This document shows, piece by piece, positions 22,265-52,606 of a DNA stretch of 64,000 nt; the first letter of the stretch is position 1; every line of letters starts with the position of its first letter. The stretch comes from Lachnospiraceae bacterium (lineage in GTDB: Bacteria > Bacillota > Clostridia > Lachnospirales > Lachnospiraceae), in contig JAFSYI010000084.1 of the NCBI GenBank assembly GCA_017450065.1, forward strand, positions 16,395 through 80,394, in the 5' to 3' direction. The notes under the pieces are model-generated. The model ran no database searches, was not told the DNA's origin, and saw only the letters and a program-made list of their open reading frames with translations. A program made the translations under genes and the position numbers.

Positions 22265-24058
22265 CTATTGCACGCTTACCGCCAATGTATCAACAGGGAT
22301 ACTTATAAATATTGTGGTGCCTACGCCCTTCTCACTCTCCACCTGCACGGAAGCCCTGTTATTGGTATGCATCTTAAGACGCAGGCAGGCATTTATCATC
22401 CCTATATGATCCCCCTTCTTAAGTTCGTCTATGGTGCAGCTCCTCAGCCTCTCATTAAGCTCCTCCACAGCCTCATCTGCCATTCCGTCACCTGTATCCT
22501 CAACCTCCATATACAGCCTGTCATCCTGCTCGTAAACCCTGATATAGATATAGGTGGTGCCTGCCTTGTTCTCAGCGCCGTGGACACAGGCATTCTCAAC
22601 GAAGGTTTCAAGGGTCAGTCTCGGCATATAATAATTCTCACACCCGTTCCTTACGCTTATATTATAGCTCAGCTTGTCTCCGAAGCGGTATTTCTGCAGC
22701 TCCAGATACGCCTCCACGAACTTAAGCTCTTCCTTAAGCCTCACCTGATCATCGGACCAGTCCACATTCTGCCTCTGAAGGATAGCCAGACGCTCTATCA
22801 TATCGGCAGTTTCACCCTCGCCCTTGATTATACTGTGCATACGTATGCTTTCAAGCACATTAAAGAGGAAATGGGGGTTGATCTGTGAATGCAGTGCCAG
22901 AAGCTCCGCCTGCTGCCTCTCTATATCTATTTCCTGTTTGCGCAGGCGTTCCTCATAAACAGTCCTTATAAGCTCCTTTAAGCGAACCACCATCCTGTTA
23001 TAATTCCTCATCAGGCTGCCGATCTCATCCCTGCCATGTATATCGCTTATTTCCTCGAGTGAACTCATGTCGTTGTTCACGTTGTCAAATGATGAACTCA
23101 GCGTCCGCAGACGGTCTGTAAATGAAATGTTGATCATATACATCAGCACAGACGGGAGCAGGATATTTACCGATAAAAGCAGGATGAGCAGCGGAAAATG
23201 CCTCTTTATCAGGTCAAATACATCCCTCTCACTGTCAGAGACCAGTATCCGCAGCTTAAGACCATATAGTTCAAAATCATTTTCATATGCGAAATCCGCG
23301 TTCCTGCCAAGATTTGCAAAAGGGGTTATAAGATCTGTATAGCCTTCTGTCGAATACAGTATCCTGTCACCCTCGCATATGTAAACCGGCATCGAATAAT
23401 GCATATCATTAAACCGCCTGACAAGCTTGCTGTAATCAATATCAACCTTGACCAGCATCCTGTGTGTGAAATCCTTATAATGATCGAGACGTCTTACCAC
23501 TGCAAGCCTTTTCCGCACAGTCTCTGTCATATGGTCATCACCCATGTAATAGCTCTCCAGTATGACGTCCCTGTCATTCTCATTTACTGCTTTCAGCCAT
23601 TCCTCACCCTCCTGCGACATAATGGATACAAAAGTTCCGCCGCTTACTATCGTCGGGTTATCGGTATACATGGTCATGAGCATATCACTGCTTGAGAGAA
23701 GGATTTTGGCAAACGGTTCATTAAGAAGTTCATACCTCGCAGTATAATAGTCAACCGACGACTCATATTCCCTGTCCATGAACTCATATATCTCCCTGTT
23801 TATGAACAGATTCGTAGTCGGTCTTACCGCACCTTCCACCGTATTTCTGAAATCAGCCTCTATCGCGCTTGCCAGGTTCTTCATTTCGGTCTGTCTGGCT
23901 GCCTGCTCATCCGAGCTTATTATGCTTAAGATGACCCCGTCAGTAACGAACAGCGGCAGAAGCACACAGAACACAAATAAGACTATAAGCTTACTGCGTA
24001 CAGTCAGATCATCCATTATTCCTTTATAGATATTTCTTTTATGTGATTGCCGTTTCAT
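22265..24058 (-). CDS. YesM-type sensor histidine kinase
   Basis: 597 residues: first membrane helix about 25-45, large extracellular domain about 48-280, second helix about 290-312, HAMP linker, then the His-kinase region (LHSQINPHFLFNVLESIRMH, phosphoacceptor His in NPHF) and an ATPase domain (ETFVENACVHGAENKAG, DTGDGMAD). This family typically senses extracellular oligosaccharides in gut and rumen Clostridia and phosphorylates a YesN partner, here the next gene. Confidence 0.92.
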   Translation of the reverse strand: MKRQSHKRNIYKGIMDDLTVRSKLIVLFVFCVLLPLFVTDGVILSIISSDEQAARQTEMKNLASAIEADFRNTVEGAVRPTTNLFINREIYEFMDREYESSVDYYTARYELLNEPFAKILLSSSDMLMTMYTDNPTIVSGGTFVSIMSQEGEEWLKAVNENDRDVILESYYMGDDHMTETVRKRLAVVRRLDHYKDFTHRMLVKVDIDYSKLVRRFNDMHYSMPVYICEGDRILYSTEGYTDLITPFANLGRNADFAYENDFELYGLKLRILVSDSERDVFDLIKRHFPLLILLLSVNILLPSVLMYMINISFTDRLRTLSSSFDNVNNDMSSLEEISDIHGRDEIGSLMRNYNRMVVRLKELIRTVYEERLRKQEIDIERQQAELLALHSQINPHFLFNVLESIRMHSIIKGEGETADMIERLAILQRQNVDWSDDQVRLKEELKFVEAYLELQKYRFGDKLSYNISVRNGCENYYMPRLTLETFVENACVHGAENKAGTTYIYIRVYEQDDRLYMEVEDTGDGMADEAVEELNERLRSCTIDELKKGDHIGMINACLRLKMHTNNRASVQVESEKGVGTTIFISIPVDTLAVSVQ

Positions 24059-24106
24059 TCCTCAGATGCGGTATTTCATTTCATCATATCAGTATCAGCA
24101 CATTTC

Positions 24107-24340: not shown

Positions 24341-24359
24341 GGTTTATCTTTCCTCCAAC

Positions 24360-25889
24360 TTATAACAGCCTTCCCTTTTCTCCCGTCTGTATTCTCTTTA
24401 CCTTTCTTGAAGTGGTCTTGTCAAACTCTTTATCCCTGAGTCTTAACCTCAGTATCCTCTTTGACTGCGGAACACTCTTGTTTATTTCTGCAACCTTCTT
24501 CTTAAACAGCTCTTCCGCCTTATCCCTGAACTCCGGATAAGGATAGACCTCTGCCGTGATCTGTTCCTCTTCCGAATAAACAAGTATCTCCTGCATCCAT
24601 TCAAGACCGGCGAATTTATTCTCAAGCTCCTCCGGGGAAATATTCTCGCCGTTGCTTAAGATTATAAGATTCTTCTTTCTGCCGGTAAGGTAGAGACGCC
24701 TGTCCTTAACATATCCGAGATCTCCGGTCTTAAGCCAGCCGTCCTCCGTAAACATTTCCTTTGTCGCTTCATCATTCTTATAATATCCGAGCATGACAGA
24801 GGGGCTCTTAACCTGTATCTCGTCATCCTCGATCCTCACCTCGCAGCCCTTAACGATGATACCCACCTCATCTCCTATAGTAGGATCGTTAAGGCTTGAT
24901 GATGAAATGCGCGGTGAGCATTCGGTCATTCCGTACCCCTGAAGCAGCGGTACTCCCATTTTCTTATATGCCTTTATAAGATCCGGCGCAAGATAAGCGC
25001 CTCCGCAGAATATACATTTTAAGTTCTTTCCAAATACTGACCTTCCGACCAAAAGCATGGGAACAAGAGGCCTGGCCTTGTGGGCTGCCTGTATCTTTCT
25101 GTAGATCGTCTCCACTATCATGGGCACGAGCAGTATCTTGGTCGGCTCGAACAGCTTGATGTTCTGAGCTATCCTCATTATCGAATCATTAATGCAGACA
25201 GTAACCCCGTACCTTATCGCGAGAAGGTAATCGCAGGTAAGACAGTAGGCATGATGTATTGGAAGCACCGATAGAATAACATCCGAACTGTCAGCCTCAT
25301 TCTCGCAGCACAGTGCGTTATCCGTAAGATTCCCGTGTGAAAGCATGACTCCCTTGCTCTTACCCGTTGTTCCCGAGGTATAGAGGATGCAGGCACAGCT
25401 GTCTTTCGAGGGATGCACAGGCTCAATGGGTTCATTGGCCGAAAGGATCCCCGCAAGCTCATCTTCCTCACCGTTTAAGCATACATAGGTTTTAATGCCG
25501 GGACACAGTTCCTTAAGCGTATCGATTATCCGCTTAAATCTTGAATCGTAGAAGAACAGCATTACATCGGCCCGGTTCAGATTATCGGCGACCTCTCCGG
25601 CGCTGAGCTGCGGATCTATGGGTACTGCCACTCCGCCTGAGAGCATGATCCCGAAAAGGCTCGTAAGATAGCCTATGCTGCTGGTCCCTATGAGCCCGGC
25701 TCTTATTTCGCAGCCGTCTGCTTCCTTTGTAAGATATGACGACACCCTGCGTGCTTCCTCATAAAAGGTTCCAAAGCCTTTCTCCCTGAAGCCCTCGCCG
25801 GCCTTTTCCTTAAGAAAGGTCTTATCCCCGTATTCCCCGGCAGCAAAGCCGATCAGATCCTCAATAGTCTTAATATCTTCCACTTTCAT
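24360..25889 (-). CDS. Stand-alone AMP-binding acyl/aminoacyl ligase
   Basis: 509 residues of the ANL adenylating superfamily. Core motifs: ILYTSGTTGKSKGVMLSHGN (P-loop), LQGYGMTECSPRISSSS, LKTGDLGYVKDRRLYLTGR and the C-terminal catalytic Lys region (KTTSRKVKRIQTG). It activates a carboxylate as an adenylate and, because an ACP gene lies 3 bases upstream in the same operon, probably loads it onto that carrier. Fatty acyl or amino acid substrates are both possible; the GYGMTE motif is closer to acyl-CoA ligases. It is separate in sequence from the three A domains of the NRPS. Confidence 0.85.
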   Translation of the reverse strand: MKVEDIKTIEDLIGFAAGEYGDKTFLKEKAGEGFREKGFGTFYEEARRVSSYLTKEADGCEIRAGLIGTSSIGYLTSLFGIMLSGGVAVPIDPQLSAGEVADNLNRADVMLFFYDSRFKRIIDTLKELCPGIKTYVCLNGEEDELAGILSANEPIEPVHPSKDSCACILYTSGTTGKSKGVMLSHGNLTDNALCCENEADSSDVILSVLPIHHAYCLTCDYLLAIRYGVTVCINDSIMRIAQNIKLFEPTKILLVPMIVETIYRKIQAAHKARPLVPMLLVGRSVFGKNLKCIFCGGAYLAPDLIKAYKKMGVPLLQGYGMTECSPRISSSSLNDPTIGDEVGIIVKGCEVRIEDDEIQVKSPSVMLGYYKNDEATKEMFTEDGWLKTGDLGYVKDRRLYLTGRKKNLIILSNGENISPEELENKFAGLEWMQEILVYSEEEQITAEVYPYPEFRDKAEELFKKKVAEINKSVPQSKRILRLRLRDKEFDKTTSRKVKRIQTGEKGRLL

Positions 25890-25892
25890 GCT

Positions 25893-26123
25893 TTATTTGC
25901 CGCCCTTTTTCTTAATATACTCGCAAACATCACCTATCGTCGCTATCCCGGTAAGCTCTGTTTCGTCCACAGTGATTCCGAAGGCCTCTTCGAATTCACC
26001 CATCATACTCATCATGGAGAAAGAGCTGAGTCCCAGATCCTCCGCCAGTCTTGATTCCTCCGTCACCTCATCAAGATCAACCTCTGCATACTGTGCAAGT
26101 ATTTCCTTTATTTTGTCTAACAT
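25893..26123 (-). CDS. Acyl/peptidyl carrier protein
   Basis: 76 residues from the ATG at 26123, which has AAGGAG seven bases upstream; a longer in-frame reading to 26168 lacks that site. The phosphopantetheine attachment Ser is in AEDLGLSSFSMMSMM, where the usual DSL has become SSF. The rest is acidic and helical, as in ACPs. It lies between the condensation-like protein and the AMP ligase and would shuttle the activated group between them. Confidence 0.88.
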   Translation of the reverse strand: MLDKIKEILAQYAEVDLDEVTEESRLAEDLGLSSFSMMSMMGEFEEAFGITVDETELTGIATIGDVCEYIKKKGGK

Positions 26124-26241
26124 GGCATTCTCCTTATCCCGTTTCATCTTATCTTTTAATTTGATCATATCTTCTCTGTTTTGAATTCACCCTCAGTATC
26201 CGGTCTTCATGAATACTGTACTTCATAAGGCACCCGGTATG

Positions 26242-27657
26242 TCACATCCAGTCAAGGATCTCACCGATGGTTATGGACGGATCCTCTATACCCTTAAATA
26301 TGGCCCTGCACAGATAATAGTACAGCTTCTCAAGCTCGTCCTCGGACACTTCATTCTTCTGGTATTCAAAATGCACGCTCATTCCGTGGTCTGTAGGCCT
26401 GTGCATAACCGTTACATATACATGCTGCATTGCAACGCCATTGGTATACCATCTGCTCTTATAATTGATCTCAGGAAGATTTATATGCTGTAATGAAGCA
26501 AGTGCAACAGGCTGGTAGGTAAGTGTTGTACATTCGTAGCCTGCTCCCTGCGGTGCCTTGTAATGCTCACCGACCATACCCATGTAAAGTATGGGATCGA
26601 AGTTGGCATGTCTTAACAGCTCATTTTCCTTGGCCTGTACGATACGGAGCGCATCCATGAAGGTGGTCTTTGGCTTGATATCCGTACGCAGCGGCCAGAA
26701 ATGGATACGTGTTCCGCCTGATTTCTGTTCAAGCAGCGTTCCTCTTCTGGCAACGGCATTCTTAAGGCTTATATCCGTTCTGTTATCCGAGAAATGCGAA
26801 AAAACGGTACGCAGTCCAAGAAGCAGCAGTGATGCCACAGGTACATTATTCTCCTTGCAGAAATCCAGTAACCTGTCCGTTGAATCCGCTTCCAGATCGT
26901 AGACCTTAATGGCTGCCTCAATATTTCCCGTCGGATATGCGGCTCTGAGCCTCTTCTTACCGGTCTGTTCACGCAGCTCAAGCAGTCTGTTCCTTGAACT
27001 GAACGGCGTATACATGGGTTCAGGCGCATCCAGCTGTCCTATCCAGTAATCCCTGTCCTTCTGCTGTTTCTCGCTGTTATCCTCATATTTAAGATCAAGC
27101 TCCAGCTGCTTTAAATAACTCATAGGCGGCTTGGGAGCCGGAGTATCCTCGAACATTCTGGAGCAGTAAAGCTGAAGGACATAGCCGTAGAAGGATGTGA
27201 TCCCCTGGGAATCAAGCGTAAGATGCTGAACCTTCATGTACAGACCCGTATAACCGCCCGGAAGCTTTATCATCTTTATCTCGTTCATCGGACCGTTATC
27301 GATCTTAAAAGGGATCCTGGTCCAGTCCTCCATCCTCTTATGGGCATCATCCTCGTTCCAGTCCGAAAAATCAACCACTTCGATATCTCTGTCCTCTGCA
27401 GGGATCAGATACTGCATGAGCGTTCCGTCCTCCTGTACGCTGAACCTTAACCTCATACATTCGAACTTCTCATAGCCGTCATAAATGCATTCCTTAAGAA
27501 CATCAAAATCAACGTCCGAGTATTCAAGGTAAAATCCCGTTCCAATGTTCAGAAGCTCCCATCTTTTACATGCGCTGACCGTGTAAAAATGGATACGCTG
27601 TGCTGCTGTGAGCGGATATGCCTGTACCACCGCACCGTTAATGGTTAGTTCTTTCAT
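26242..27657 (-). CDS. Free-standing condensation-domain-like acyltransferase
   Basis: 471 residues, single domain of the NRPS condensation/CoA-dependent acyltransferase superfamily. The start YPLTAAQRIHFYTVSA matches the C1 motif. The active-site motif HHxxxDG appears as QHLTLDSQG: the first His is Gln, the second His and the Asp remain, and the Gly is displaced. FWPLRTDIKPKTTFMDALRI resembles the later C-domain region. ATG at 27657 has AAAGGAG four bases before it. With the carrier protein and AMP ligase downstream it forms a compact three-gene acylation set. It could condense, acylate or release a product; the acceptor is unknown. Confidence 0.75.
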   Translation of the reverse strand: MKELTINGAVVQAYPLTAAQRIHFYTVSACKRWELLNIGTGFYLEYSDVDFDVLKECIYDGYEKFECMRLRFSVQEDGTLMQYLIPAEDRDIEVVDFSDWNEDDAHKRMEDWTRIPFKIDNGPMNEIKMIKLPGGYTGLYMKVQHLTLDSQGITSFYGYVLQLYCSRMFEDTPAPKPPMSYLKQLELDLKYEDNSEKQQKDRDYWIGQLDAPEPMYTPFSSRNRLLELREQTGKKRLRAAYPTGNIEAAIKVYDLEADSTDRLLDFCKENNVPVASLLLLGLRTVFSHFSDNRTDISLKNAVARRGTLLEQKSGGTRIHFWPLRTDIKPKTTFMDALRIVQAKENELLRHANFDPILYMGMVGEHYKAPQGAGYECTTLTYQPVALASLQHINLPEINYKSRWYTNGVAMQHVYVTVMHRPTDHGMSVHFEYQKNEVSEDELEKLYYYLCRAIFKGIEDPSITIGEILDWM

Positions 27658-27699
27658 ATAACTCCTTTCCCGACCATCATATGTAGTCAAATAGTATAT

Positions 27700-28668
27700 T
27701 TATACCGTCAGTACTTCTTCAAGGAATTCTTTTTCCGTTTTTTCATATGTTTCCGTGTCTTCAAAGACACTTGATCCGTGTCCGCCTTCATCCACTATAA
27801 GCAGCCTCTTCTTACAGGTTGCCGACTCGTAATTCTTATTGCTCATCCAGGTCGGTACAAACTTATCCTTTCCTCCGTGAATGAAAAGTACGGGAACCTT
27901 ATTGTCCTTAAGTGCCTCAATGGTCGAATAATCCCCGAACTTATATCCCGCAAGGAACTGCGAGTACACATCCCCTATCTCCATAAACGGAAATGACGGA
28001 ACATGATAATCCTTCTTCATGACATGGGCGAATATCTCCCTGGCCGAGGTGAAAGCACAGTCGGCTATCACGGCACTGACATGCTCCTGTACATACGGAA
28101 GTCCCAATGCCATCAGTACGGTTGTAGCTCCCATGGAAGTACCGTGAAGGACATACTTCATATTATTTCCGAATCTGTTAATGCACCATGTCAGCCATTC
28201 TTCGGTGTCAAACCGGTCGAGCACACCGAAGCCAACGTATTTTCCCTCGGACTGTCCGTGAGCGCGGAGATCCAGCAGCATCACCTCGTAGCCCATCTCG
28301 TGGAAAAATTTCGCATGGGTCATATTATCCATCGCCTTACTGGTAAAACCGTGATGAAGGATAATGCATTTATCTGTCGGCACTCCCGCCGGAAGATAGA
28401 ACGCATGGAGCTTAAGCCCGTCTCTGCTCTGTATATATACTTCCTCATAAGACTGCTGCTCGGCCCACTGTGCTACAGGAGCCATCTTCGTCTCGTATTC
28501 CTTCATTTTTTCCGCATCGGCGAATTCCGATATTATTGCCTCACTGGTTCCCCTGGGTCTTATAAGAGTCTTGCTTATGAGCACACCGGCTCCCACCATT
28601 CCACCGACTGCCATTCCGGCTGTCCCTACCGCAGCCAGTGTTCCCACAACTTTGGTTTTTCTATCCAT
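27700..28668 (-). CDS. Membrane-anchored alpha/beta hydrolase (S33-like)
   Basis: 322 residues. N-terminal Gly-rich hydrophobic segment (residues about 8-32) could anchor it in the membrane. Catalytic triad of the alpha/beta fold: Ser in LHGTSMGATTVLM, Asp in IHGGKDKFVP, His in DEGGHGSSVF; oxyanion motif HHGFTSKAMDNMTH. Such proteins hydrolyse small esters, amides or thioesters. It precedes the condensation-like gene by about 40 bases, so it may release or trim the product of the carrier-protein system. The substrate is unknown. Confidence 0.82.
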   Translation of the reverse strand: MDRKTKVVGTLAAVGTAGMAVGGMVGAGVLISKTLIRPRGTSEAIISEFADAEKMKEYETKMAPVAQWAEQQSYEEVYIQSRDGLKLHAFYLPAGVPTDKCIILHHGFTSKAMDNMTHAKFFHEMGYEVMLLDLRAHGQSEGKYVGFGVLDRFDTEEWLTWCINRFGNNMKYVLHGTSMGATTVLMALGLPYVQEHVSAVIADCAFTSAREIFAHVMKKDYHVPSFPFMEIGDVYSQFLAGYKFGDYSTIEALKDNKVPVLFIHGGKDKFVPTWMSNKNYESATCKKRLLIVDEGGHGSSVFEDTETYEKTEKEFLEEVLTV

Positions 28669-28927: not shown

Positions 28928-28950
28928 ATATACATATCCAATATTTATTT

Positions 28951-29211
28951 TCAGCTCTCGAAAGGAGTTTTATCCATAAGGCTGACCGCATTCATCATAC
29001 CCATCTGCATCTGCATCCCCAGAACATCGGCATAATTCTTCGTTTCGCCCCTCTTTAACGGATTCTCATTCTCACCACTCGTAAGTCCGGAAAAATCTGT
29101 CTTACCGGAAGTAACATCACTTCCTATGGCATCTATCTTATTAAGACTTGCCGAGCTTACTCTGTTGGTATTATAGATGTAAGGACTTGCTCCCACCGCA
29201 CCTATTCTCAT
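28951..29211 (-). CDS. Small protein of unknown function beside the leader peptides
   Basis: 86 residues from the ATG at 29211 (AGAAGGAG upstream). N-terminus RIGAVGASPYIYNTNRVSSA, then Ser/Asp/Gly-rich sequence and a Met-rich end (YADVLGMQMQMGMMNAVSLM). No double-glycine leader, signal peptide or membrane helix. It has its own promoter (29256-29284) and terminator, so it is an independent single-gene transcript in the middle of the exporter region. I do not recognise the family. Confidence 0.65.
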   Translation of the reverse strand: MRIGAVGASPYIYNTNRVSSASLNKIDAIGSDVTSGKTDFSGLTSGENENPLKRGETKNYADVLGMQMQMGMMNAVSLMDKTPFES

Positions 29212-29255
29212 AGCGTCTCCTTCTCTATACGTCACATTAGCTCTTATATGTAACT

Positions 29256-29284: not shown

Positions 29285-29297
29285 CCCTTTTTTGTAC

Positions 29298-29573
29298 TCA
29301 GCAGGCTCCCGATCCGAAGCTTCCACCGCTTACCAGCTTGGAGCCCGGAATATCCTCGAGATTATTGATATCCGAACCGCCAAGCAGCGTTGCCTTGGGC
29401 CTTTCTCCGTTAAGTATAGCATTTTCTGCCTTAGGCCTCTTCCCGTTCTTACTCTTGTATACCAGGTCATTTCCTATACCTGATATGGCACCTGTACCAA
29501 GAAAAACACCACCGTTTACATCATTCAGATCACTATCACTTATGGCTCTGTTCATCTTTTCATTCTCGTTCAT
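29298..29573 (-). CDS. Double-glycine leader peptide precursor with internal repeat and C-terminal Cys
   Basis: 91 residues. The leader is 22 residues ending DSDLNDVNGG, with the classical spacing for C39 peptidase substrates: hydrophobic residues at -4 (Val), -7 (Leu) and -12 (Ile) and Gly-Gly at -2/-1. The predicted mature part (about 69 residues) is Gly/Ser-rich, has an imperfect repeat NGKRPKAENAIL / NGERPKATLLGG, and ends GSFGSGAC with one Cys as the last residue. RBS AGGAGG precedes the ATG. It follows the zinc-ribbon peptide by 31 bases. Likely exported and cleaved by the C39 exporter at 32199; activity (bacteriocin, signal or structural) unknown. No modification enzyme is adjacent. 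Confidence 0.75.
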   Translation of the reverse strand: MNENEKMNRAISDSDLNDVNGGVFLGTGAISGIGNDLVYKSKNGKRPKAENAILNGERPKATLLGGSDINNLEDIPGSKLVSGGSFGSGAC

Positions 29574-29604
29574 AGTATTATCCTCCTACTGTTATGTACT
29601 ATGG

Positions 29605-29868: not shown

Positions 29869-29940
29869 TTTATCCTCCATATGTTATCTTTTGTCATGCG
29901 GTCCGTTAAAAATACACTCTTAACTTACCTCTTCTGATAA

Positions 29941-36552: not shown

Positions 36553-36629
36553 AGTGTTACATCCTTTACTTAATATATAATGATTTGTAGTTTTTATTAA
36601 AGATACCGGTCAGAACTCCTTTAACCATT

Positions 36630-45600: not shown

Positions 45601-46940
45601 TACGCCGTAAGAATCATCTGGGAACCAAGCTTTATTGCTGTAACAACCGCATCCTCAATATCTTTAAATTCCCTTAATGCTGCCTCAACCTCGGCCGGTT
45701 CTATACGAAATCCACGTATCTTTATCTGCCTGTCAGCTCTTCCCATGAATTCAAGCAGACCGTCGCTCCTTCTAAATGCAAGATCACCTGTATGATACAG
45801 TCTTTCATATCCTGCTCTTTTTGAAAACGGATTGTCGGTAAAGGCCTTCATTGTTAGCTCCGGACTGTTTAAATAACCCGCGGCCACATGCAATCCGCTT
45901 ATACACAACTCTCCTACAGTATTATCGGGAACCTCATTACCATGCTCATCAAGGATATAAATCTCCACGTCACTGATAGGTCTGCCTAAGGGAACCTTCT
46001 CGGGATAACTCTCCTTTACCGGAAACATGGTCACAAAAAGCGTACACTCGGCAGGACCGTACCCGTTATGCAGAGTATATCCCTCCGGCGGATCTACAGA
46101 CGTAAGTGCCTCTCCACCCACTGTAAGGTGACGCAGCGAATGATTCTTAATACTTATCGCGAACTGTCTTCCAAGCTGCGTGGTCATTGTTACATGCGTT
46201 ATTACGTTGTCTTCAAAGAATGAATTTAATGCCAATAGATCTGTTCTGATATGATCCGGTATAATATATACTGCCGCTCCGGCAGTATACGGCAGAAGAA
46301 GTTCTGCAATGGCAAGATCGAAAACATAGCTCGGATGCTGCCCCATCCTGCAGTCCGCGTCCACTTCATAATAGTCCGCATACCACTTGGCAAATGAAAG
46401 TATATTTCCATGTGTGAGCATAATACCCTTGGGAACCCCGGTGGAGCCTGATGTATATAGAATAACAAAGAGATCCTGCTCCATTATATCCGGCCACCCA
46501 TACCCGTCTTCGTCCGGAAGACTTACAATATCTTCAACATACAGGAGCCTGCGGTTCTTTCCAGTTATGTCTTCGGACAGAAGATGCCCGTTTTCATGTG
46601 TGGTTATAATAAACCCGGTATCAGCGTTCTCTATCATAAAGTCGATACGCTCCACGGGATATGATGCATCAAGCGGCTGGTATGCCGCTCCCGACCTGAG
46701 TATACCGAGCGAAGCTATGGACATATACTCATTTCGCGGTACAAGAACAGAGACAACACTTCCCCTGCCTACCCCGCATTTATTAAGATATGCCGCCAAC
46801 TTACCCGTAATCCTGTCAAGTTCTCCGTAGGTATAACTTCTGCCGACATAATTAAGTGCCTCTTTATTTTCAAATCTATGTATTGACTCACGTATCAGGT
46901 CAAGTATTGAGTGTACTCCGTTTGACATCATAATACCCAT
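36630..46940 (-). CDS. Three-module nonribosomal peptide synthetase (A-T-C-A-T-E-C-A-T-TE)
   Basis: 3436 residues. Approximate layout by motif: A1 (YTSGSTGVPKG ~162; GYGPAECT ~292), T1 (IGGNSILIA ~540), C1 (HHIINDG ~720), A2 (YTSGTSGEPKG ~1222; TYGPTETT), T2 (LGGDSIKAI ~1611), E (HHYVIDEVSW ~1786; TVGWFTAVYPV), C2 (HHCILDGWS ~2257), A3 (YTSGTTGEPKG ~2729; DYGPTEAC), T3 (LGGSSIDVM ~3103), thioesterase (GYSQGG ~3246). All key motifs look intact. It begins with an adenylation domain, so no N-acylation starter; module 2 should give a D-residue; the thioesterase hydrolyses or cyclises. Predicted product: a tripeptide X1-(D)X2-X3. Specificity residues read by eye (A1 DLATLVGLF, A2 DQWSLVTVN, A3 DAQ?VADVN) match no code I know. 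No phosphopantetheinyl transferase or MbtH gene nearby. Confidence 0.95.
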   Translation of the reverse strand: MGIMMSNGVHSILDLIRESIHRFENKEALNYVGRSYTYGELDRITGKLAAYLNKCGVGRGSVVSVLVPRNEYMSIASLGILRSGAAYQPLDASYPVERIDFMIENADTGFIITTHENGHLLSEDITGKNRRLLYVEDIVSLPDEDGYGWPDIMEQDLFVILYTSGSTGVPKGIMLTHGNILSFAKWYADYYEVDADCRMGQHPSYVFDLAIAELLLPYTAGAAVYIIPDHIRTDLLALNSFFEDNVITHVTMTTQLGRQFAISIKNHSLRHLTVGGEALTSVDPPEGYTLHNGYGPAECTLFVTMFPVKESYPEKVPLGRPISDVEIYILDEHGNEVPDNTVGELCISGLHVAAGYLNSPELTMKAFTDNPFSKRAGYERLYHTGDLAFRRSDGLLEFMGRADRQIKIRGFRIEPAEVEAALREFKDIEDAVVTAIKLGSQMILTAYYISEDIIDEGRLSQFILLKKPSYMLPSFFIRVNSFPLNTNGKIDYDRLPKPSFENYKAAYEEPENETERKISGIYALLLNTERVGRNDDFMLIGGNSILIAGLIYSIEKELSVRLSVRDVMENPTVVALALKVEEKHKNTDILEYEPMSDSTLPEQEYYEISKAQERIYTAQALLADDDPTYLISAVINNEEPLDIVRIMEVLSDLFRIHESLRSSFQIIDGKFVQKIQEASYEWIDRAVESSRVVTEPIGFMLDKAPLFWWKYEGNRLIFYWHHIINDGVGASMFASEFVALYNGQEIDLPRLHQKEYAAWERRQTETKAYNKGRDAWRKLFVGYDDIQELQLPQDSIARSLYPGKAGHEYGIIEKELSGSIDVLCKNSGVTPYMFFIAVYFVLLYKYSGQRRFITGTVMDGRSDQYTERMQGMFACTVPVLTDIREGDTFSGLLRQVKERILDCHTFKHIAIEDIAADFMALGGYTRTSHDHLLFDYFFTMRDFGTSLSDINNRRAWVTFPADERPMYDITLETGKDEGCYNYFFEYDMKLFRSDSVSIMSRHYVNLIRECINKADRDIDTLSMTDAAERKELLRLAAGDECPYRQNTVIKRIEDHVVGCPDKTAVIFRNEVVSYETLWIRSGRIAEALVRSYVTDRTYVGRMNRGKNDEATTDLRVILLSDRCTGMIASILGILRSGAGYVPVSLEYPAERIVYLLKDCMPHAMVVCGYELPSFIKEEADKIGITVLTVSYDGDVRDDTVGKTNGTEELPQVSMDRIAYMIYTSGTSGEPKGVVVEHRQLSAMLDAYGKIYDLDKEDTVLQFANFVFDQSVWDIFHILTVGGTLCLIPKGLNNDPDALARYCEDNKVTVASLTPGYLRLLSSDNFKSLRLLDVGGEAPDRSLLLAWSRGRTVYNTYGPTETTVNASSYVFAREGVLSDETDLKGENVPIGRPAPGLNIYIMQGNELCGIGVPGELCIAGKQVARGYHNRPDLTAERFTDDPFTDGKLYRSGDLARMLPDGNIEFISRLDNQVKIRGFRIELEEVESAMRSIASVRNAVVIVKDSKGEKLLCGYYVPKDPEDPGLKRIRKELKNRIPEYMVPSVLVPLEELPLTINGKINRNLLPDPGDVIDRQTIMNDYCAPVTQEERDCCMSFEKVLGLKNVSVSDDFLSLGGDSIKAIRIVALLREKGYAINASSVLKSHSIKGMAAALKRNEQISYREYDTVRPTPVMRMFAAAHMPEPSYYNQSTVFLVKGKVDIHSLEWALNGLIYCHGMLRMYLKNDGNIGIRDAREAPVLTLKVYGNISSVEREKLMNDINSSMDLMSGKVMGAAVFEDGKKTYLFLSFHHYVIDEVSWDIITEDINTLYEQAVKKKLYSRGYEESLKLLPDSTVSFGEWSESLWKYGSNNAFRSEKEYWMSVHEELESSRYNISEWLDSYKRNGSDTEKGYGTVSRTVDKVTAHKLKTLAQLRYGAGPETVLMAVLCKSVFDSDGVEVLLLQMESHGRTDAGILPHTERTVGWFTAVYPVILHVHNLIDEQIIELKELMAGIPNSGIGYGLMFDDLTELGGLVFNYLGSEKVKHDSVIEWTDEYGGVEISPVNVDPETISVNIRDTGAGFKIECLYDKVFEAGRIERIVDNYVSMITTIVRSSSRNDRIYTPSDFCVGRILTMDEWRIITDIYSPQDIEMISPLTPLQQGMLYRYMIEPDSSAYFLQDRLTIKGEWDGSHFEKALQAVFVRFDVLRIQMLYSGLEQPVQIILKEDRIKPEIIYSKAVGFDEMVQEDLERGMNPSSEIMFRVTIPEKAIHDADMEVLITSHHCILDGWSFSILIDTFMNYYQMLMRGVSPEYLFDTAERESRLGCSFADFLRNRAGSHVYGKLETWNKYLEGIDEGTGIFYGKDNEGRSGVADFVSFTIDGQSKERIHRFAEKNRITTGCFFGCVWGILLGFENNTDDVVFGETVSGRENGPEGITSAVGMFINTVPVRIKWTADTKVHEVFRQRQEDYYTMQDALDVPLDRAGTDGIKASDLISTHYVYENFPETDNNDRYQYEMIHEEVDYPISVSVEEGSSFTVSIQYDKTRYDRRYIDLLVGRYMHIIDQITSDLEHKMGELARIPTDERRMMLGDMAGIKCESPNQTVLDMIRKTVMKNPDAKAVSGLDSELSYRELWILSARLAGRIGYGGERFIALFCDRGVGMIISMIAAFMSGGAYVPLDPDYPDERIKYIIKDCGAETILRYTDAETDGREELFTELGLRVIDVDVRANSHDEVDEELVLPSGLSGDRLAYMIYTSGTTGEPKGVEVGHSALAGMVISNIGYYGFFDMPVLQAANYVFDASLQEIFVTLGSGGTVCTIPRSVLGSAEDTAEFCRNKGVRILITTNALLQALDPAEFGDLKIVCAGGDAANAETFAIWSKYTQILVNDYGPTEACVNATVHTYETGDSRYIPIGTPYRGKRVYVMQGDELCGIGQKGEICIGGNGLARGYHNRDELNRQKFTDNPYEDGQIYHSGDIGVYGLDKELRFLGREDDQIKIRGFRIETGEIENCIRKYEPVKEVAVINRKDGDREPYLVAYITSEEELDLRQLKNRLLKRLPAYMVPSVIERVDELPLTINGKLDIKALPTPKEMSGFSAPVGFFEQLVAGLFRKILRIERIGRNDSFFELGGSSIDVMKLVSGLHRYHIRVSDVAGYPTPALLGERMLNNWNGSERNNNGMMLLRDGRIDRPSIFCVPPSGGMSLCYIPFVEDISTEGRIFALTDDKYNRFGTMSLDELTGYDPYSENLWVDTVRKYTDSVVTEFKDGDILVGYSQGGNVAHMIAGILEKQGYTVGQIIMLESVPYRDEGGVYDKDKERSERLRTAVAIFTGSNVDDNSEDHMEEIQDVTYLRNRLKALMGEESSDTLLHSLYETYLVYSANVCNELHTEGRVMAKIDSILLASDSGDDAVLYTLSGDNPWASYTYTMGRTFIISCDYDEHLVFLSKYRSVISEIVKKLIMK

Positions 46941-46962
46941 TCGCTGCTTAGCCTTTCTATCA

Positions 46963-48123
46963 TTACCGGTATATGTAATCTGCTATCTGAAGCTTCTCGA
47001 ACGGTATTTCGTACCCTATTCGTAGTGCAGTAGTATAATTGACACCTATTCTCGGCGTAACCTCACAAACCATATCGAGCTGATCGAAGGGGACCTCCTC
47101 CTCCGCATATCTTCTAAGCTGCTTAACAACATGATAAGCCGATTCGGCGCAGTCGGTAAGAGTAACACCAAACAATACTCCGTTCTTTACCGGAATAAGC
47201 TCGTCCTGTGCCAATGTTTTTATACCTGCAGGAATAACCGAATCATCCAGAAGTTCCTGCATTTTAGTATCATATTCAATGGAAGCCACCGTCACAAACA
47301 GACAGTCTATCCCTTCATTTACCAGTTTTCTGTATGCATTCTTCAGTACTTCATAGTATCTGTCATAATCATCATCGCTTACAGGTTCATTTACGTATTC
47401 ATAAACCACTTCAAATCCATATTCCCTTGATTTTTCTTCAACCACATCAATAGCCGAATAGATATATGCATCCTCAGAATCCTCATATACGACTCCCAGC
47501 TTTTTAAAACCAATAAATTTATATCCTGCATCAAGCTGTCTTTTGTAAGTATCTTTATCCAACAGAGCATATGAATTATCAGTATATCTTTCGGTCTCAC
47601 TTTTTACCATATGTGAAGCTATCGGATCCCCCGAAAACATGTTCATGAACTTATTTTTGTGCTCATTCTCCGAAAAATAAACGCCGGAGGCTGTTCCCAT
47701 CGAAAGCATGACATCAACGTCATCCCTGTTCACCATCTCGGGATATTCATCCTCATCCATTTCATCGAGATTGAAAAAAGCCTCTCTTACAAATCTGTAT
47801 CGGGCACCTTCCTTATTTGCATCACAAATATCATTCCAAAGTATCAGGGTATCTCCGTTTCTAAAATTTTCTTCGAAATTGGCATCTTTATATTTCTCCG
47901 CAAGGGATGCATCGATACTTCCCTCTTCTATAAGCTCAATAGCTATATCAAGCAACAGCTGTGTAAAGAAACCGTATTCCTCACTCTCCGAATATCCCAA
48001 ACGTATGACATTACCGGTTCCCGCAGTCTGTTCCAAAGCATAAGCCCTGTATCCTGATGTTGTTGACACACTAAGTATAGAAACAAATAGGATAAACACA
48101 ATAAGCGTTCTTCGTCTGTTCAT
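46963..48123 (-). CDS. Secreted type 1 periplasmic-binding-like protein
   Basis: 386 residues with an N-terminal signal segment (LIVFILFVSILSVSTTSGYR) and no lipobox. The rest resembles the TrpX-like ABC substrate-binding fold: FKKLGVVYEDSEDAYIYSAI, VNEGIDCLFVTVASIEYDTK, KNGVLFGVTLTDCAESAYHV. No matching ABC permease or ATPase is adjacent. It overlaps the sensor-MFS gene by 4 bases (ATGA) and precedes the NRPS by 22 bases, so the three are translationally linked. Likely an extracellular ligand sensor or a product-binding protein; ligand unknown. Confidence 0.75.
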   Translation of the reverse strand: MNRRRTLIVFILFVSILSVSTTSGYRAYALEQTAGTGNVIRLGYSESEEYGFFTQLLLDIAIELIEEGSIDASLAEKYKDANFEENFRNGDTLILWNDICDANKEGARYRFVREAFFNLDEMDEDEYPEMVNRDDVDVMLSMGTASGVYFSENEHKNKFMNMFSGDPIASHMVKSETERYTDNSYALLDKDTYKRQLDAGYKFIGFKKLGVVYEDSEDAYIYSAIDVVEEKSREYGFEVVYEYVNEPVSDDDYDRYYEVLKNAYRKLVNEGIDCLFVTVASIEYDTKMQELLDDSVIPAGIKTLAQDELIPVKNGVLFGVTLTDCAESAYHVVKQLRRYAEEEVPFDQLDMVCEVTPRIGVNYTTALRIGYEIPFEKLQIADYIYR

Positions 48124-50351
48124 TTTCCCACCTTCTTTCTCAGTTTCTTATACCTGCCCGAATAATACAGCACAGATATTCCGTAAACCACCGTACCTAT
48201 TGCAAGCGCCTGTACTATTACCCCGGTAGCCCGTGCGGCTCCTCCCGAAAGCCTGGAAGTAATCGCAACGGGACCGATAACCATGGCAATCTTGCCAAAT
48301 ACCATTTGTATGAGGGTACTCTGTTCTGTTACCGTACCGGGTACATGATCCAGAGCCGAATCTATGACAACCATCCCAAAGCAATCCCAGATACTTGTCA
48401 GAACAAGCGCCAGTATGGCAGCCCAGATACTTGATGTCCATACAAACAGACCGATGCTGACCGTCTGCATAACCATGTACATAAGCATTGACTGCCTTGT
48501 ACTTATATTCTTTATTACCCAGTCGGATATAGGATCGGTAAGATATGCGATTATCATGAAATTGATCATCAGGAATCCGGATACCATTGAATTGGAGAAT
48601 CTCATTTCATCTCCGAACAAGGGAAACGTATATTCAACGAACAGAGACGCCATATACAGGGGAATTACCGCAAAAAACATAAATATCCTGACCTGTGGAA
48701 ATCTCAGCTCTCTCATGGCTATCCTGAACGAAAGATTCTTCTTTTTTTCCTGTTTCTCCGGGAAACCGGCAAAATAGATCAGGAACACGCAGAGAATCCC
48801 GATGAAAGCCCCCACCATAAATACTGCAGGATATGTCGTAGCATCCGCGATCAGACCTCCTATTACCACACCACAGCTAACTCCCAGATTTATCGCAGCC
48901 ATATATTCAACAAGCAGTCTTGTATGCATTGCCTTGTCTTCCTGGGATGCCGCAAAAAGCCTGACTGCATTTATTATTATACCGTCACAGAATCCGAATA
49001 TGAACCTTGCAAAAATAAGAACGGCAAGATTGGGAGCAGTTGCACACAGTATATATCCGACAACACCGGATACTATACCAGCCGTCAGCGTTTTCTTCAT
49101 ACCGAATCTGTTTATGAGAGCCCCACATCCGAAAAGACCGATCAGCACCGAAACCGAATACATTGTATTGGGCATTCCTCCGAGAAAAGACAGGGATTCC
49201 GGCAGCTTGCTGGCATCAAACATCTTATTACTGAACACAGAGAAGAATCCGCTATCCAGGGCAAAAGCAATTCCCTCAACAAAAATGAACAGTCGAAAGC
49301 CCGGGATATACACCTTGTTATCCGCACGACTATCCTTGTATTCTATGTGGTTTGTCAGGAATTTAATTGCCTCCATACTCATAAATATGGTTATAAGTAT
49401 AAGTATCAGAACATCGAGCGCATTGTTAACACGTTTCCTGTTTATCAGATCCAGGCTGTAGAAGCAGTTTATCTCTATAGGATCACTTTCTCCGTCTACT
49501 TCCATACTCTGCGTACTCATAGCCTCTGAGCTTACATCATTACCCGTCACATACCTTATTTCCTGTATTTCGGGAATATCAGCCGCAATATCTGTCATAT
49601 ACTCTTCAATTCCCGTAATCTCATCAAATGCCACGCCTTTGGCAATGACCTCATTTATATCATTTTGAATGGAAAATGCCGTCATTACTGCAATCTTATC
49701 CATCGATTCACTGAAGGCCTCATCAACCCTCTGCATCGACAGTCCACCGAGTGCTAACTGCGAAAGTACAAGTATGATTATAGAGGATACCCGCATTCTC
49801 TTAACGCTTATTTCTTCTCCGCCTTTAATATAGCAGACAGCAAACGCCGCCAGTACCACACCCAGCATAATATATGTACTTATCCTGAATATATAGCTCA
49901 TGTAAGCTTTTGTCGCTACATCCACCACGCCCTTGTCAAGCTTTAATATTATCTCTCCGGCATCAAATCCGACAAAGGCATAAATACCGTCCTGTTCAAT
50001 TATATACTCCTCATCAGGATTGGTACGGCGCACGTTTTTGGAAATATCACCGACCATCTCAATGCTGTTCCCTTCGCTGTCTCTGATCTCTACACCATTG
50101 ATATCGTACGACAGCCTGTTTATACCCTCAAGAACTTCCTTTAGTCCATAGAATTTGTCTATAGGCTTGCCAAAGCTTAATGAGTAATTCAGTTTTTTTA
50201 CGGCACTTGTTGTATTAAGTACTCCTGCATGAACGACCGTGTCCGCCTGAAGCTTACGGTAAGACATGGTTGTAAGCGCAGCCGAAAAAGACGTCATTAT
50301 TATTCCCAAAAGTATTATTGTAAGTACTACTCGCTCTTTTTTTATCTTCAT
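48120..50351 (-). CDS. MFS transporter fused to an N-terminal extracellular sensor module
   Basis: 743 residues from the ATG at 50351 (an earlier in-frame ATG at 50390 is possible; the ribosome site is weak for both). Residues about 8-30 are a membrane helix, followed by an extracellular domain (about 31-150), two helices near 155-215, a second extracellular stretch to about 310, and then a 12-helix MFS domain (about 340-740) with GMPNTMYSVSVLIGLFGCGA and FARFIFGFCDGIIINAVRLF. Normal MFS proteins are about 400 residues, so the front half is an addition resembling the input part of chemoreceptors or sensor phosphatases. Possible role: exporter of the NRPS product with built-in sensing. Inference only. 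Confidence 0.78.
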   Translation of the reverse strand: MKIKKERVVLTIILLGIIMTSFSAALTTMSYRKLQADTVVHAGVLNTTSAVKKLNYSLSFGKPIDKFYGLKEVLEGINRLSYDINGVEIRDSEGNSIEMVGDISKNVRRTNPDEEYIIEQDGIYAFVGFDAGEIILKLDKGVVDVATKAYMSYIFRISTYIMLGVVLAAFAVCYIKGGEEISVKRMRVSSIIILVLSQLALGGLSMQRVDEAFSESMDKIAVMTAFSIQNDINEVIAKGVAFDEITGIEEYMTDIAADIPEIQEIRYVTGNDVSSEAMSTQSMEVDGESDPIEINCFYSLDLINRKRVNNALDVLILILITIFMSMEAIKFLTNHIEYKDSRADNKVYIPGFRLFIFVEGIAFALDSGFFSVFSNKMFDASKLPESLSFLGGMPNTMYSVSVLIGLFGCGALINRFGMKKTLTAGIVSGVVGYILCATAPNLAVLIFARFIFGFCDGIIINAVRLFAASQEDKAMHTRLLVEYMAAINLGVSCGVVIGGLIADATTYPAVFMVGAFIGILCVFLIYFAGFPEKQEKKKNLSFRIAMRELRFPQVRIFMFFAVIPLYMASLFVEYTFPLFGDEMRFSNSMVSGFLMINFMIIAYLTDPISDWVIKNISTRQSMLMYMVMQTVSIGLFVWTSSIWAAILALVLTSIWDCFGMVVIDSALDHVPGTVTEQSTLIQMVFGKIAMVIGPVAITSRLSGGAARATGVIVQALAIGTVVYGISVLYYSGRYKKLRKKVGK

Positions 50352-50470
50352 CGGATCAGATTCTACCCCCAAATTTATAGTCATCGTCAATTATAATATG
50401 TTTTGTGACATATGTCTTTGCGAATTTGTGAATTTGCGAAAAGAATGCGTAACATATAATAACCCTGCAT

Positions 50471-52606
50471 TCATGTCAGACTCTTTATCCTGACTGCAAG
50501 CATCGTAAGATCGTCAAACTGCGGCGCATCCTTAACAAAAGCATCCACATTCTTCCTCACATGGCCGATCAAGGACTCGGGATCATCTTTGTTATATCTC
50601 CTGAGCACTCTCTCCAGCCTGTCGGTCGTGTACAGCTGATTTGATTTATTGGTCGCCTCGGGAACCCCGTCAGTATACAGGAAGATCATATCATTAACCG
50701 TAAGCCTCACTTCGTTTACGGTATATACCGTATTCTCCATGGCTGCGAGCGGCAGCTTCTTCCTGGAAGGCATGATCATTTCAACGTTTCCATCGTCATG
50801 GATTATATACGGATTCTCATGACCTGCGTCAACATAGGTCATCCTGCCGAGCTCCAGATCGATCACACCCAGCCATGCCGTGACAAACATCTCCTGGCTG
50901 TTTCCCTCGCACAGTCTTTCATTGGCATTTCCAAACACTTCACCGGCGCTCATCCCGGTCATCGCAAGGTTTTTGATAAGAGTTTTGGCAACCACCATAA
51001 AGAGTGCGGCCGGAACACCCTTCCCCGATACATCTGCCATTACTATCGCAAGATGATTCTCATCAACAAAGAAGAAATCATAGAAATCGCCTCCAACCTC
51101 CCTGGCCGGCGTCATTTTTGCATATATTTCGAATTCCTTCCTGTCCGGGAACGGCGGGAATTCGGAAGGAAGCATTGATGCCTGGATACCGGCGGCCACT
51201 GACAGCTCAGCTCCTATCCTTTCCTTTTCAGCCGTTATTTCCGTTATATCCTTGATATACTGCTTCATCCTTTCGGTCATTGAACCAAAGGATTCAGCCA
51301 GCGTCTGTATTTCGTCATGAGTATCCGTATCCCATGTGAAGTCCAGATTGTCACCGTTTATATCCCTTACACTGTCGGTCAGCTTAATGACCGGAGCCGC
51401 AAGTCTGTCTGCAAGCCGCACCGATAATACCGCCGCTCCGATGCCGAGCACGATTATAAGAACAAGCAGAAGTCCAAGCGATGACAATATTGCCGTACCG
51501 ACCATTTTATTCTGCTGTTCCTTGCTTATGCTCACCTCAGCCAGCAGCTCCTTTGAAGGACTTGTCACTTCCTCCCTCGGAAGCACCGCAAGATATGACC
51601 AGCCTACCGAACTCATAGGTGCGCACGCAGCATAATACTCCTTCCCGTCAAGCTCGATGGTACGTACATCCGATTTACCCTCGAGCGCTTCTTTTATAAA
51701 GGCCGCCACTCCTCCGTCGGAACTCTTTCTTAAATCTCTTTTATTATCCTCATTTACAGCCAGTTCACCGTCCGGAGCTCCGGAAAACAGAACCTGTCCT
51801 TCATCATTTATAACGCAGGCAAACCCGTTCTTCCCCACGCGGAAACCGTTAACATTAGACCGTATTGTATCAAGGTGCAGGCCCGCTCCCGCAACGCCCC
51901 TCAGAACACCGTTGGCATACACCGGCACTCCGCAGGTTATGACCGGTGCCCCGGTATCACTGTCATCTATAATACCGGTGAAAGAAGGGATACCCGTCTC
52001 TACCGCTTTCCTGTACCAGGGTCTGTCGCTTGCCTCAAACGACAGCGGTTCACCGTTCTTCGGAATATTGTAGTCTGACGCTTTCTCAGCACATATGAAT
52101 ATACCGCTGGTTGATGCGAAATAATCGGCGGACATTGACAGATTAGTCTCATTTACAGCCTTAAGCACACCCTGCATATTTGCAAGAAGAGCCAGCTCCT
52201 CTACGATCTCAGGGGATTCGTGATCTGTTCCGTTCCCAAAAGCGGCATATGCCACCAGCTTACCCACTTCCGGCTCACCATAGTCATAAAACTGTGCATC
52301 ACCGTACCTTTCAGGATTCAGATATATGTCTCTTGCCGAATTGGCTATAATGGACACAGACTCAATAAAATCTGCGAATTCATCATTCGCTGTTGCCGCT
52401 CTTCCCGCAGAAGTCTTTGCAAGTATTTCCCTGGCAAGCTTATCCATGGCCTCCTTTGACATTCCGTCTATTCTCTGCCCCGTCTCTTTGTTTGCATCGA
52501 TTATCTTTCTCTGCATGAACAAGGTCTGCATAAGAGTAAGAAGGCTTATGAATATCAATATACCCATAACCAATATGATTATTACCCTGAATATCTTTTT
52601 ACGCAT
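50471..52606 (-). CDS. Membrane PP2C/SpoIIE-type Ser phosphatase with double Cache sensor and HAMP
   Basis: 711 residues: membrane helix about 8-28, extracellular dCache-type domain about 35-370 (SFEASDRPWYRKAVETGIPS, ITCGVPVYANGVLRGVAGAG), second helix about 380-402, HAMP about 405-455, linker (EKERIGAELSVAAGIQASML), PP2C domain about 470-710 with EVGGDFYDFFFVDENHLAIV, ADVSGKGVPAALFM and APQFDDLTMLAV. The linker and catalytic domain are close to those of the phosphatase at 34759. Cache domains of this type bind amino acids or small metabolites. First gene of the NRPS-side operon. Confidence 0.92.
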   Translation of the reverse strand: MRKKIFRVIIILVMGILIFISLLTLMQTLFMQRKIIDANKETGQRIDGMSKEAMDKLAREILAKTSAGRAATANDEFADFIESVSIIANSARDIYLNPERYGDAQFYDYGEPEVGKLVAYAAFGNGTDHESPEIVEELALLANMQGVLKAVNETNLSMSADYFASTSGIFICAEKASDYNIPKNGEPLSFEASDRPWYRKAVETGIPSFTGIIDDSDTGAPVITCGVPVYANGVLRGVAGAGLHLDTIRSNVNGFRVGKNGFACVINDEGQVLFSGAPDGELAVNEDNKRDLRKSSDGGVAAFIKEALEGKSDVRTIELDGKEYYAACAPMSSVGWSYLAVLPREEVTSPSKELLAEVSISKEQQNKMVGTAILSSLGLLLVLIIVLGIGAAVLSVRLADRLAAPVIKLTDSVRDINGDNLDFTWDTDTHDEIQTLAESFGSMTERMKQYIKDITEITAEKERIGAELSVAAGIQASMLPSEFPPFPDRKEFEIYAKMTPAREVGGDFYDFFFVDENHLAIVMADVSGKGVPAALFMVVAKTLIKNLAMTGMSAGEVFGNANERLCEGNSQEMFVTAWLGVIDLELGRMTYVDAGHENPYIIHDDGNVEMIMPSRKKLPLAAMENTVYTVNEVRLTVNDMIFLYTDGVPEATNKSNQLYTTDRLERVLRRYNKDDPESLIGHVRKNVDAFVKDAPQFDDLTMLAVRIKSLT

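Follow-up and report, generated by a model that had tools for sequence, protein, structure and literature searches.

An NRPS locus with SpoIIE sensor phosphatases and an NHLM-type exporter in a Lachnospiraceae genome: a possible signalling cassette with an exchanged specificity block

Loci for polymorphic quorum sensing, such as ComQXPA, CSP and agr, join a signal gene to the gene of its receptor; the sensing half of the receptor co-varies with the signal, the output half is conserved, and alleles are exchanged between lineages. ComQXPA and the CSP pherotypes are examples from Gram-positive bacteria (PMC4408185, PMC5629823). In Burkholderia, valdiazen, a signal from part of the ham natural-product cluster, controls that cluster and many other genes (PMC5878181). 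In NHLM/NHLP clusters, exporters of the TIGR03796 and TIGR03797 families adjoin each other and are accompanied by leader peptides (PMC2887384), and the proteins OaaA, OaaACP and OaaC make fatty-acid amides, products that act on host receptors (preprint PMC13142362). Here, a stretch of 64,000 nucleotides from a Lachnospiraceae bacterium (the window; assembly GCA_017450065.1, contig JAFSYI010000084.1, positions 16,395 to 80,394) is described, in which a three-module nonribosomal peptide synthetase (NRPS) lies in one gene run with SpoIIE sensor phosphatases, an NHLM-type exporter and a fatty-acid-amide (FAA) cassette. The NRPS and its immediate neighbours are proposed to form a cassette that makes, exports and senses a signal and whose specificity block is exchanged between species, a reading to which we assign a probability of about one half.

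The window is part of contig C53 in a 3.2-Mb draft genome (G000; 100 contigs, 88% complete). Open reading frames (ORFs), together with Pfam and NCBIfam matches, define a gene run on the minus strand that extends from 52606 down to 21109 without a change of strand. It comprises, in order, SpoIIEa, MFSf, u386, the NRPS, SpoIIEb, a stub of the NHLM HlyD protein, two NHLM exporters, two peptides with double-glycine (GG) leaders, a 94-residue protein, an alpha/beta hydrolase, a condensation domain, a carrier protein, a ligase, a 77-residue ORF, a histidine kinase and a response regulator. The matches are intact, at family level and far beyond chance. Every gene named in a first-pass annotation of the window is present on the minus strand where that annotation placed it; missing from its list were the GWFT epimerisation motif, the 94-residue gene, the hydrolase, the 77-residue ORF, the histidine kinase (which ends at 22265, where the annotated region began) and the AraC-type regulator. 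The locus consists of three units with different histories, namely the NRPS core (MFSf, u386, NRPS and SpoIIEb), the NHLM exporter with its two peptides, and the FAA cassette. The joint system that the annotation had envisaged survives in part: NRPS, phosphatase and NHLM exporter occur together beyond chance, and the condensation set is separate.

The core opens with MFSf (48120..50390; all features lie on the minus strand), a protein of 756 residues in which a membrane N-terminus is fused to an MFS exporter (PF07690, residues 404-707); before residue 404 it has no Pfam match. The next gene, u386 (46963..48123), encodes an ABC_sub_bind-like secreted binding protein. The u386 of the window itself has no Pfam or NCBIfam match; a relative matches PF04392, and the family profile matches the solved binding protein 6hni. 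The NRPS (36630..46940; 3436 residues) has the organisation A-T-C-A-T-E-C-A-T-TE, taken from Pfam domains and, for E, from the GWFT motif. SpoIIEb (34759..36552; 597 residues) is a membrane sensor-SpoIIE phosphatase, whose sensor half occupies residues ~30-285 (35698..36465). At the other end of the core lies SpoIIEa (50471..52606; 711 residues), a dCache-HAMP-SpoIIE phosphatase. PF07228 is over its cut-off in both phosphatases. The Cache domain of SpoIIEa (PF02743) resembles amino-acid chemoreceptors, the nearest solved sequences being those of PctC and PctA, which we take to be amino-acid receptors; dCache_1 sensors of amino acids have the ligand motif RPWY...D.

Comparison with the related genome G316 (like G000, a metagenome assembly) points to a 14-kb block that appears to have been exchanged between sister species (approximately 35610..49778); one edge falls within the exporter gene and the other between the two halves of SpoIIEb. 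Genes flanking the core share 76-98% protein identity with those of G316, and 46-88% of their 4-fold sites are the same. The latter figure is 32-34% for u386 and the N-terminal part of the NRPS and 35-47% for the C-terminal NRPS segments. In MFSf, residues 1-200 show 95-99% nucleotide identity and the rest only 66-79%, with the step near residue 205. In SpoIIEb, the sensor half shows 55-69% and the phosphatase half 96-98%, identity recovering at residue ~315. SpoIIEa lies outside the swapped block; its residues 301-711 are 99% identical in nucleotides, with 189/191 4-fold sites the same, well above background and as after a recent gene conversion, to judge by the pattern. In G302, SpoIIEa is only 62% identical, as is its background. 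SpoIIEa was dropped as a candidate for the product-specific receptor, because its protein identity with G316 is 96% although the NRPS alleles differ.

Across genomes, the sensor half of SpoIIEb tracks the NRPS. Their identities correlate with r=0.89 (7 taxa, 2 of 5040 permutations), a value that becomes 0.95 without G327 (1 of 720), 0.90 without G316 (2 of 720) and 0.98 without both (1 of 120). With its own attached phosphatase half, the sensor correlates at r=0.35 (6 taxa, 110 of 720). The histidine kinase (22265..24058; PF06580), used as a control for species background, correlates with the phosphatase (r=0.80; 4 taxa, 3 of 24) and not with the NRPS (r=-0.27) or the sensor (r=-0.35; both 4 taxa). 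Identities of u386 and of the MFS domain follow the NRPS as well (r=0.83 and 0.84, 5-6 taxa). Synthase and sensor thus vary together with a conserved output, as in polymorphic loci, the pair G305-G327 being the exception. The suggestion of the first-pass annotation that the NRPS product is sensed gains support from this co-variation.

The core is also found elsewhere in the Lachnospiraceae. Of the 37 genomes of the genus, 14 have a relative of u386 and six match the C-terminal half of the NRPS at E<=1e-100; one scan of genome contigs with the u386 alignment returned 39 loci. G302 carries the full run from the peptides to SpoIIEa, and in G316 the run is split over two contigs. G305 has the kinase, the 94-residue gene, SpoIIEb, the NRPS and u386, and no exporter intervenes. 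G299 has MFSf, u386, the NRPS and SpoIIEb, then an RsbW-like kinase near the contig end, and the contig of G327 ends inside SpoIIEb. The cultured Butyrivibrio sp. MC2021 has MFSf, u386, NRPS and SpoIIEb, with a TIGR03796 match on another contig. MFSf is split into two genes in G306, G309 and G331. Two further observations concern the synthetases themselves: contig C153 of G305 (L285) holds another very large NRPS frame of 5648 residues, and the NRPS of G327 (L190) is broken by a stop into two ORFs, possibly through sequencing error or decay, being otherwise ~99% identical to that of G305.

The NRPS has three A domains in 11 of the 12 loci in which more than the first A domain is readable, and two in G316. 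With code positions set by gramicidin synthetase numbering and anchor motifs, the middle module reads DQWALVTVN in 10/12 loci, and modules 1 and 3 vary between loci. The GWFT motif is present in 7/7 NRPSs tested. No residue is named for any A domain, because the codes gave no confident match. In tight same-strand runs of core relatives, other enzymes stand in the place of the NRPS. The slot is filled by a GNAT protein in some relatives, with GNAT-type cores in G306 and G309; by a lysine-2,3-aminomutase-like protein and a D-Ala-D-Ala-ligase-like ATP-grasp protein (L247, L290); by an alanine-racemase-like protein and an unknown 482-residue protein (L291); by an aminotransferase and a 2-hydroxyacid dehydrogenase (L295; the ORFs of L296 match in size and place only); by a formyltransferase (L292); or by a GH3 ligase (L293). 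L289 has no such enzyme beside u386, and in L297 the only slot gene typed encodes a protein of an unknown family of 477-487 residues. This family accompanies SpoIIE and u386 at L291:1926-3374, L295:7784-9229, L296:11026-12489 and L297:8568-10001; it has no Pfam match (two scanned), no NCBIfam match (three scanned) and no significant match to a solved structure, and is possibly an unknown enzyme.

The observed gene content and order, recombination footprint, co-variation and recurring linkage suggest the following model. The product of the NRPS would be a tripeptide whose middle residue has the D configuration; the TE domain would release it in linear or cyclic form, and MFSf would export it. 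The extracellular half of SpoIIEb, u386 or both would recognise the tripeptide, which u386 may present. The phosphatase half would act on a conserved phospho-protein partner, in switching of the RsbW/STAS type, and so change gene expression; recombination between species would replace the specificity block and leave the phosphatase half fixed. The NHLM exporter and the two peptides, which belong to the same gene run, would probably come under this control too, as an effector arm. A nutrient input would be added by SpoIIEa, which is conserved between the alleles of G000 and G316 and is closest to PctC and PctA. Partners are available in trans, since the genome as a whole has seven SpoIIE domains clearly over the cut-off, an eighth passing only when its pieces are summed. 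Outside the window it also has three HATPase_c_2 matches that exceed 77 bits, one of which is fused to the SpoIIE domain of a second NHLM system on contig C90, and a fourth match that is weak but still passes the cut-off. RsbW-like kinases are present in 8/22 listed runs of relatives, and also beside SpoIIEb in G299. The SiaA model matches the two phosphatases of the locus with 69 and 64 bits (cut-off 700).

A number of observations weigh against this proposal. The correlations rest on 4-7 genomes, only those with a readable gene being used. Without G316 the correlation of sensor and phosphatase rises to a moderate r=0.49 (8 of 120), so that much of the contrast between the SpoIIEb halves comes from G316 alone. 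The u386-NRPS correlation is weak in the 4-taxon set (r=0.36). The two sensor regions of MFSf fail to follow the NRPS (r=0.46 and 0.17), and they were dropped as a specific receptor for this reason. The SpoIIEb sensor has no fold recognisable by sequence: profile comparison with the Cache domain of SpoIIEa gave a probability of 5.5, and comparison with solved structures gave one chance-level hit (E=0.39). In the window, tblastn found no RsbW-like gene (STAS domains were not searched for). In G316, the NRPS has no first A-T module and starts at a condensation domain directly after u386. The NRPSs of G305 and G327 are ~99% alike (94-100% nucleotide identity per 300-base window, mostly 97-100%), and their SpoIIEb genes share residues 1-60 and then show ~80% nucleotide identity, with sensors 82% alike. 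By sequence, this is a recent NRPS transfer that took along only the start of the sensor; co-transfer is therefore a tendency and no rule. Finally, no exporter adjoins the MC2021 core in the part examined or the G305 core on its readable side.

The same core could be read as a weapon, in which the NRPS product is an antibiotic, MFSf serves self-export, u386 and the SpoIIE proteins sense stress or immunity, and the alleles stem from an arms race. Allelic exchange is also common in weapon and immunity loci, the terminal A-domain codes are variable, a peptide exporter lies alongside, and MFSf weakly matches drug-efflux MFS models, below their cut-offs. However, the set of exporter, binding protein and phosphatase recurs with GNAT, racemase, aminotransferase, formyltransferase and GH3 enzymes, which would make simple amino-acid derivatives, and no immunity-like gene is present among the typed genes, although no dedicated search was made. 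We consider a weapon unlikely, at roughly one chance in four.

The second unit begins directly behind the core, the SpoIIEb stop and the start of the stub being adjacent (34759/34758). The 79-residue stub (34519..34758) corresponds to the N-terminus of the NHLM HlyD protein, matching TIGR03794 at positions 1-46 of 421 with 28.1 bits (cut-off 156.2), and thus falls short of the HlyD that marks an NHLM cluster. A full-length HlyD elsewhere was considered and rejected, as the 88%-complete genome contains no TIGR03794 match over the cut-off. Both exporters exceed theirs: the one with a C39 peptidase (32199..34493) matches TIGR03796 with 912 bits (cut-off 853.3), and the one without peptidase (29978..32167) matches TIGR03797 with 718.7 bits (cut-off 709.4). 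The two GG-leader peptides are pep1 (29605..29880), with CxC and CxxC pairs in its core that look zinc-ribbon-like by eye, and pep2 (29298..29573), which ends in SGGSFGSGAC. Both are conserved in G316 (73% and 76% protein identity, outside the swapped block) and in G302. Neither has an NCBIfam match, the NHLP and Nif11-type precursor families included, and both carry short GG leaders instead. Cys-rich GG-leader ORFs with a Cys content comparable to that of pep1 also lie by the NHLM exporters at L221:19351-19689 and L224:19334-19630.

The first-pass annotation had named gene order in relatives as the touchstone of a joint system. By that measure the parts are often apart, as a TIGR03796 exporter over the cut-off is found in 30/37 genus genomes (47 matches in total) and the NRPS in 6/37, yet their linkage recurs. 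An NHLM exporter is linked to 9/28 cores with readable flanks and to 0/20 control loci (stretches of 9.9-20 kb, one kind of control only); by core type, the counts are 5/7 for NRPS, 4/11 for GNAT and 0/10 for others. From the 47 matches in 37 genomes, a random 20-kb stretch is estimated to hold a TIGR03796 match ~1% of the time. Type, order and identity, without a tree, divide the nine linked loci into three groups, so that the independent cases number about three. Linkage of exporter and core is thus beyond chance yet far from universal. The Lachnospiraceae loci L218 and L219 each have a single run of HlyD, the two exporters, MFSf, u386 and NRPS, in which the exporter flanks the core on the side opposite to that in the window; a Peripla_BP_6 binding protein precedes the run of L218. 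In L221, L222, L224 and L245, a GNAT-type core is followed by the stub and the exporters, the run of L245 being unbroken with gaps up to 54 bp. All six loci come from samples named Lapin, read here as rabbit. In the window and G302, the exporter is 12.5 kb from u386, because the NRPS stands between them.

Contig or flank ends excluded G327, G299, L212-L216, L220, L230 and L294 from the 28 cores, and 15 deeper clostridial loci (L231-L244, L246) were kept outside them. Counted with a limited view were G305 (3' side only), G301 (2.9 kb on one side), L222 (5.0 kb on one side), L245 (7.2 kb) and L291 (4.5 and 7.2 kb). The count treats G316 as linked despite the split of its core over two contigs, and L289 as unlinked, an atypical locus with u386 and a sensor gene and no MFS or SpoIIE gene near. 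The 15 deeper loci contain distant u386 relatives and have NHLM-like exporters less than 10 kb away in seven cases (L231, L233, L234, L235, L238, L241 and L246), L233 and L234 showing only the second exporter within the stretch; L231 also has a gene for a radical SAM/SPASM protein that overlaps u386, and a sigma-70-type factor behind its exporters. G000 itself has a second NHLM system on contig C90 (L034 2763-9807), which includes a SpoIIE-HATPase fusion and a 162-residue HlyD-like protein, again without a full HlyD match. That this NHLM system has a phosphatase of its own speaks for control of NHLM export by SpoIIE and says nothing on the NRPS.

Downstream of the peptides, a protein of 94 residues beginning MRIGAVGASPYIYNTN (28951..29235) borders the locus in relatives and adjoins the kinase/regulator pair in the genus; it is 71-97% identical in G305, G302, G306, G309 and G316 and has no Pfam match and only weak NCBIfam matches. 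A strong terminator-like hairpin with an 11-bp stem and a T run (28927-28903) separates this gene from the hydrolase, so ending the upstream unit and splitting the gene run. Beyond it lies the FAA cassette, made up of the alpha/beta hydrolase (27700..28668; Pfam), the stand-alone OaaC-like condensation domain (26242..27690), an acyl carrier protein (25893..26168; PF00550) and an AMP-forming acyl ligase (24360..25889; PF00501). The run closes after the 77-residue ORF and the kinase with the AraC-type response regulator (21109..22230; PF00072, PF12833). The condensation domain matches the solved structure 12kh with E=2.7e-112. Its motif, QHLTLDS, keeps HxxxDS and has Q in place of D at the first position of the noncanonical DHxxxDS, which is frequent, not universal, in OaaC-type domains (PMC13142362).

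Condensation-domain relatives occur in 44/299 genomes of the family at E<=1e-10, own genome counted, a few of the weakest inside large NRPS frames. Twenty wider neighbourhoods of the 29 relatives' loci were examined, with masked genes recovered by tblastn. Ligase, carrier, condensation gene and hydrolase were together in 20/20, an NHLM-like exporter above 240 bits was beside them in 0/20, and the NRPS query met only the ligase itself in the two best matches per locus. The cassette was not found in the examined parts of the G302 and G305 loci; G316 carries it with its split locus. From these sequences, the FAA cassette is a known system and a separate neighbour of the NRPS core. One joint operon that acylates the peptides was dropped as a reading on account of the independence of the cassette and the terminator. 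Acylation of the peptides by the condensation set, as first suggested, thus finds no support, because that set is unlinked to NHLM or NRPS genes in 20/20 relatives and lies behind the hairpin.

This independence also speaks for a mosaic hotspot, in which the region from trmD to the kinase and regulator collects unrelated cassettes without joint function. Such a hotspot would further account for the wide occurrence of the exporter without the NRPS (30/37), its absence beside the NRPS in G305 and the GNAT-type cores in the same slot in G306 and G309. It sits less well with the NHLM genes, which adjoin the core in three groups and in more than one order, the gaps in L218, L219 and L245 staying below 80 bp, and which in the window start where SpoIIEb stops; none of the 20 control loci has an NHLM exporter. 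As an account of the whole run, we would give a hotspot roughly one chance in four.

The steps in identity between G000 and G316 could also be artefacts of chimaeric metagenome contigs rather than recombination. Both sides of the block are near-identical (~95-99% in nucleotides), which is where assemblers cross over, and this point counts in favour of an artefact and against our proposal. The edges, however, are internal to contigs of 28-80 kb in both genomes, on two separate contigs in the case of G316; a similar step within the same gene separates G305 and G327; and sensor and NRPS correlate at 0.90 without G316 (0.98 also without G327), with the cultured MC2021 among the taxa. An assembly artefact is improbable. 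A metallophore or nutrient scavenger, exported by MFSf and retrieved by u386, has very little to recommend it: u386 belongs to a solute-binding family, but no uptake permease and ATPase were seen with it in the window or in the relatives' listed runs, where some ORFs are untyped, and the enzyme variants of the slot are, to our knowledge, not chelator pathways.

If the signalling cassette is real, a major family of rumen and gut bacteria would communicate by chemically diverse amino-acid-derived signals read by phosphatases, a channel undescribed in the literature searched. The allelic block indicates the protein part expected to bind the product, which makes the hypothesis testable, and since the cultured Butyrivibrio sp. 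MC2021 carries the core, the system is accessible in culture. The known FAA cassette is now set apart from the rest of the locus. We venture, with the odds somewhat against it, that the core may represent an undescribed family of modular signalling cassettes in the Lachnospiraceae. Its constant core would be the MFS exporter, the ABC_sub_bind-like protein, the SpoIIE receptor phosphatase and often an RsbW-like kinase. Its interchangeable amino-acid enzymes (NRPS, GNAT, aminomutase with ATP-grasp ligase, racemase and others) might each make their own signal, and some of these cassettes would drive NHLM peptide export. No paper on a combination of NRPS, NHLM and SpoIIE genes was found in the literature searched, outside which most subscription papers lay.

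Compared with described systems, the window recalls several at once. SiaABCD and RsbU-RsbW, as we know them, share its membrane sensor-SpoIIE phosphatases, and RsbW-like kinases occur in the runs of several relatives; in the window, however, a phosphatase is linked to a biosynthetic enzyme and an exporter, with no RsbW-like gene. The likeness to valdiazen and the ham cluster is that the product of a biosynthetic cluster serves as the signal, as is proposed for the window; we know of no SpoIIE receptor in that system. Valdiazen differs in being a diazeniumdiolate from a Proteobacterium, and the available part of the report describes no allelic block (PMC5878181). With the NHLM/NHLP clusters, the window shares the paired TIGR03796 and TIGR03797 exporters and leader peptides (PMC2887384), but its HlyD is only a 79-residue stub, its precursors fall outside the NCBIfam leader families, and an NRPS-phosphatase core lies alongside; the words "phosphatase" and "sigma" are absent from the main text of that report. 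The FAA cassette resembles OaaA-OaaACP-OaaC in its free-standing ligase, carrier and condensation proteins and in HxxxDS, but adds an alpha/beta hydrolase and has Q where the preprint gives D (PMC13142362). Unlike in polymorphic quorum sensing of the ComQXPA and CSP kind, the signal proposed here would be nonribosomal and its receptor a SpoIIE phosphatase instead of a histidine kinase, and the exchanged block of the window also takes in an MFS exporter and a solute-binding protein. None of the parts is new in kind, and we regard the combination as a new variant of polymorphic signalling loci.

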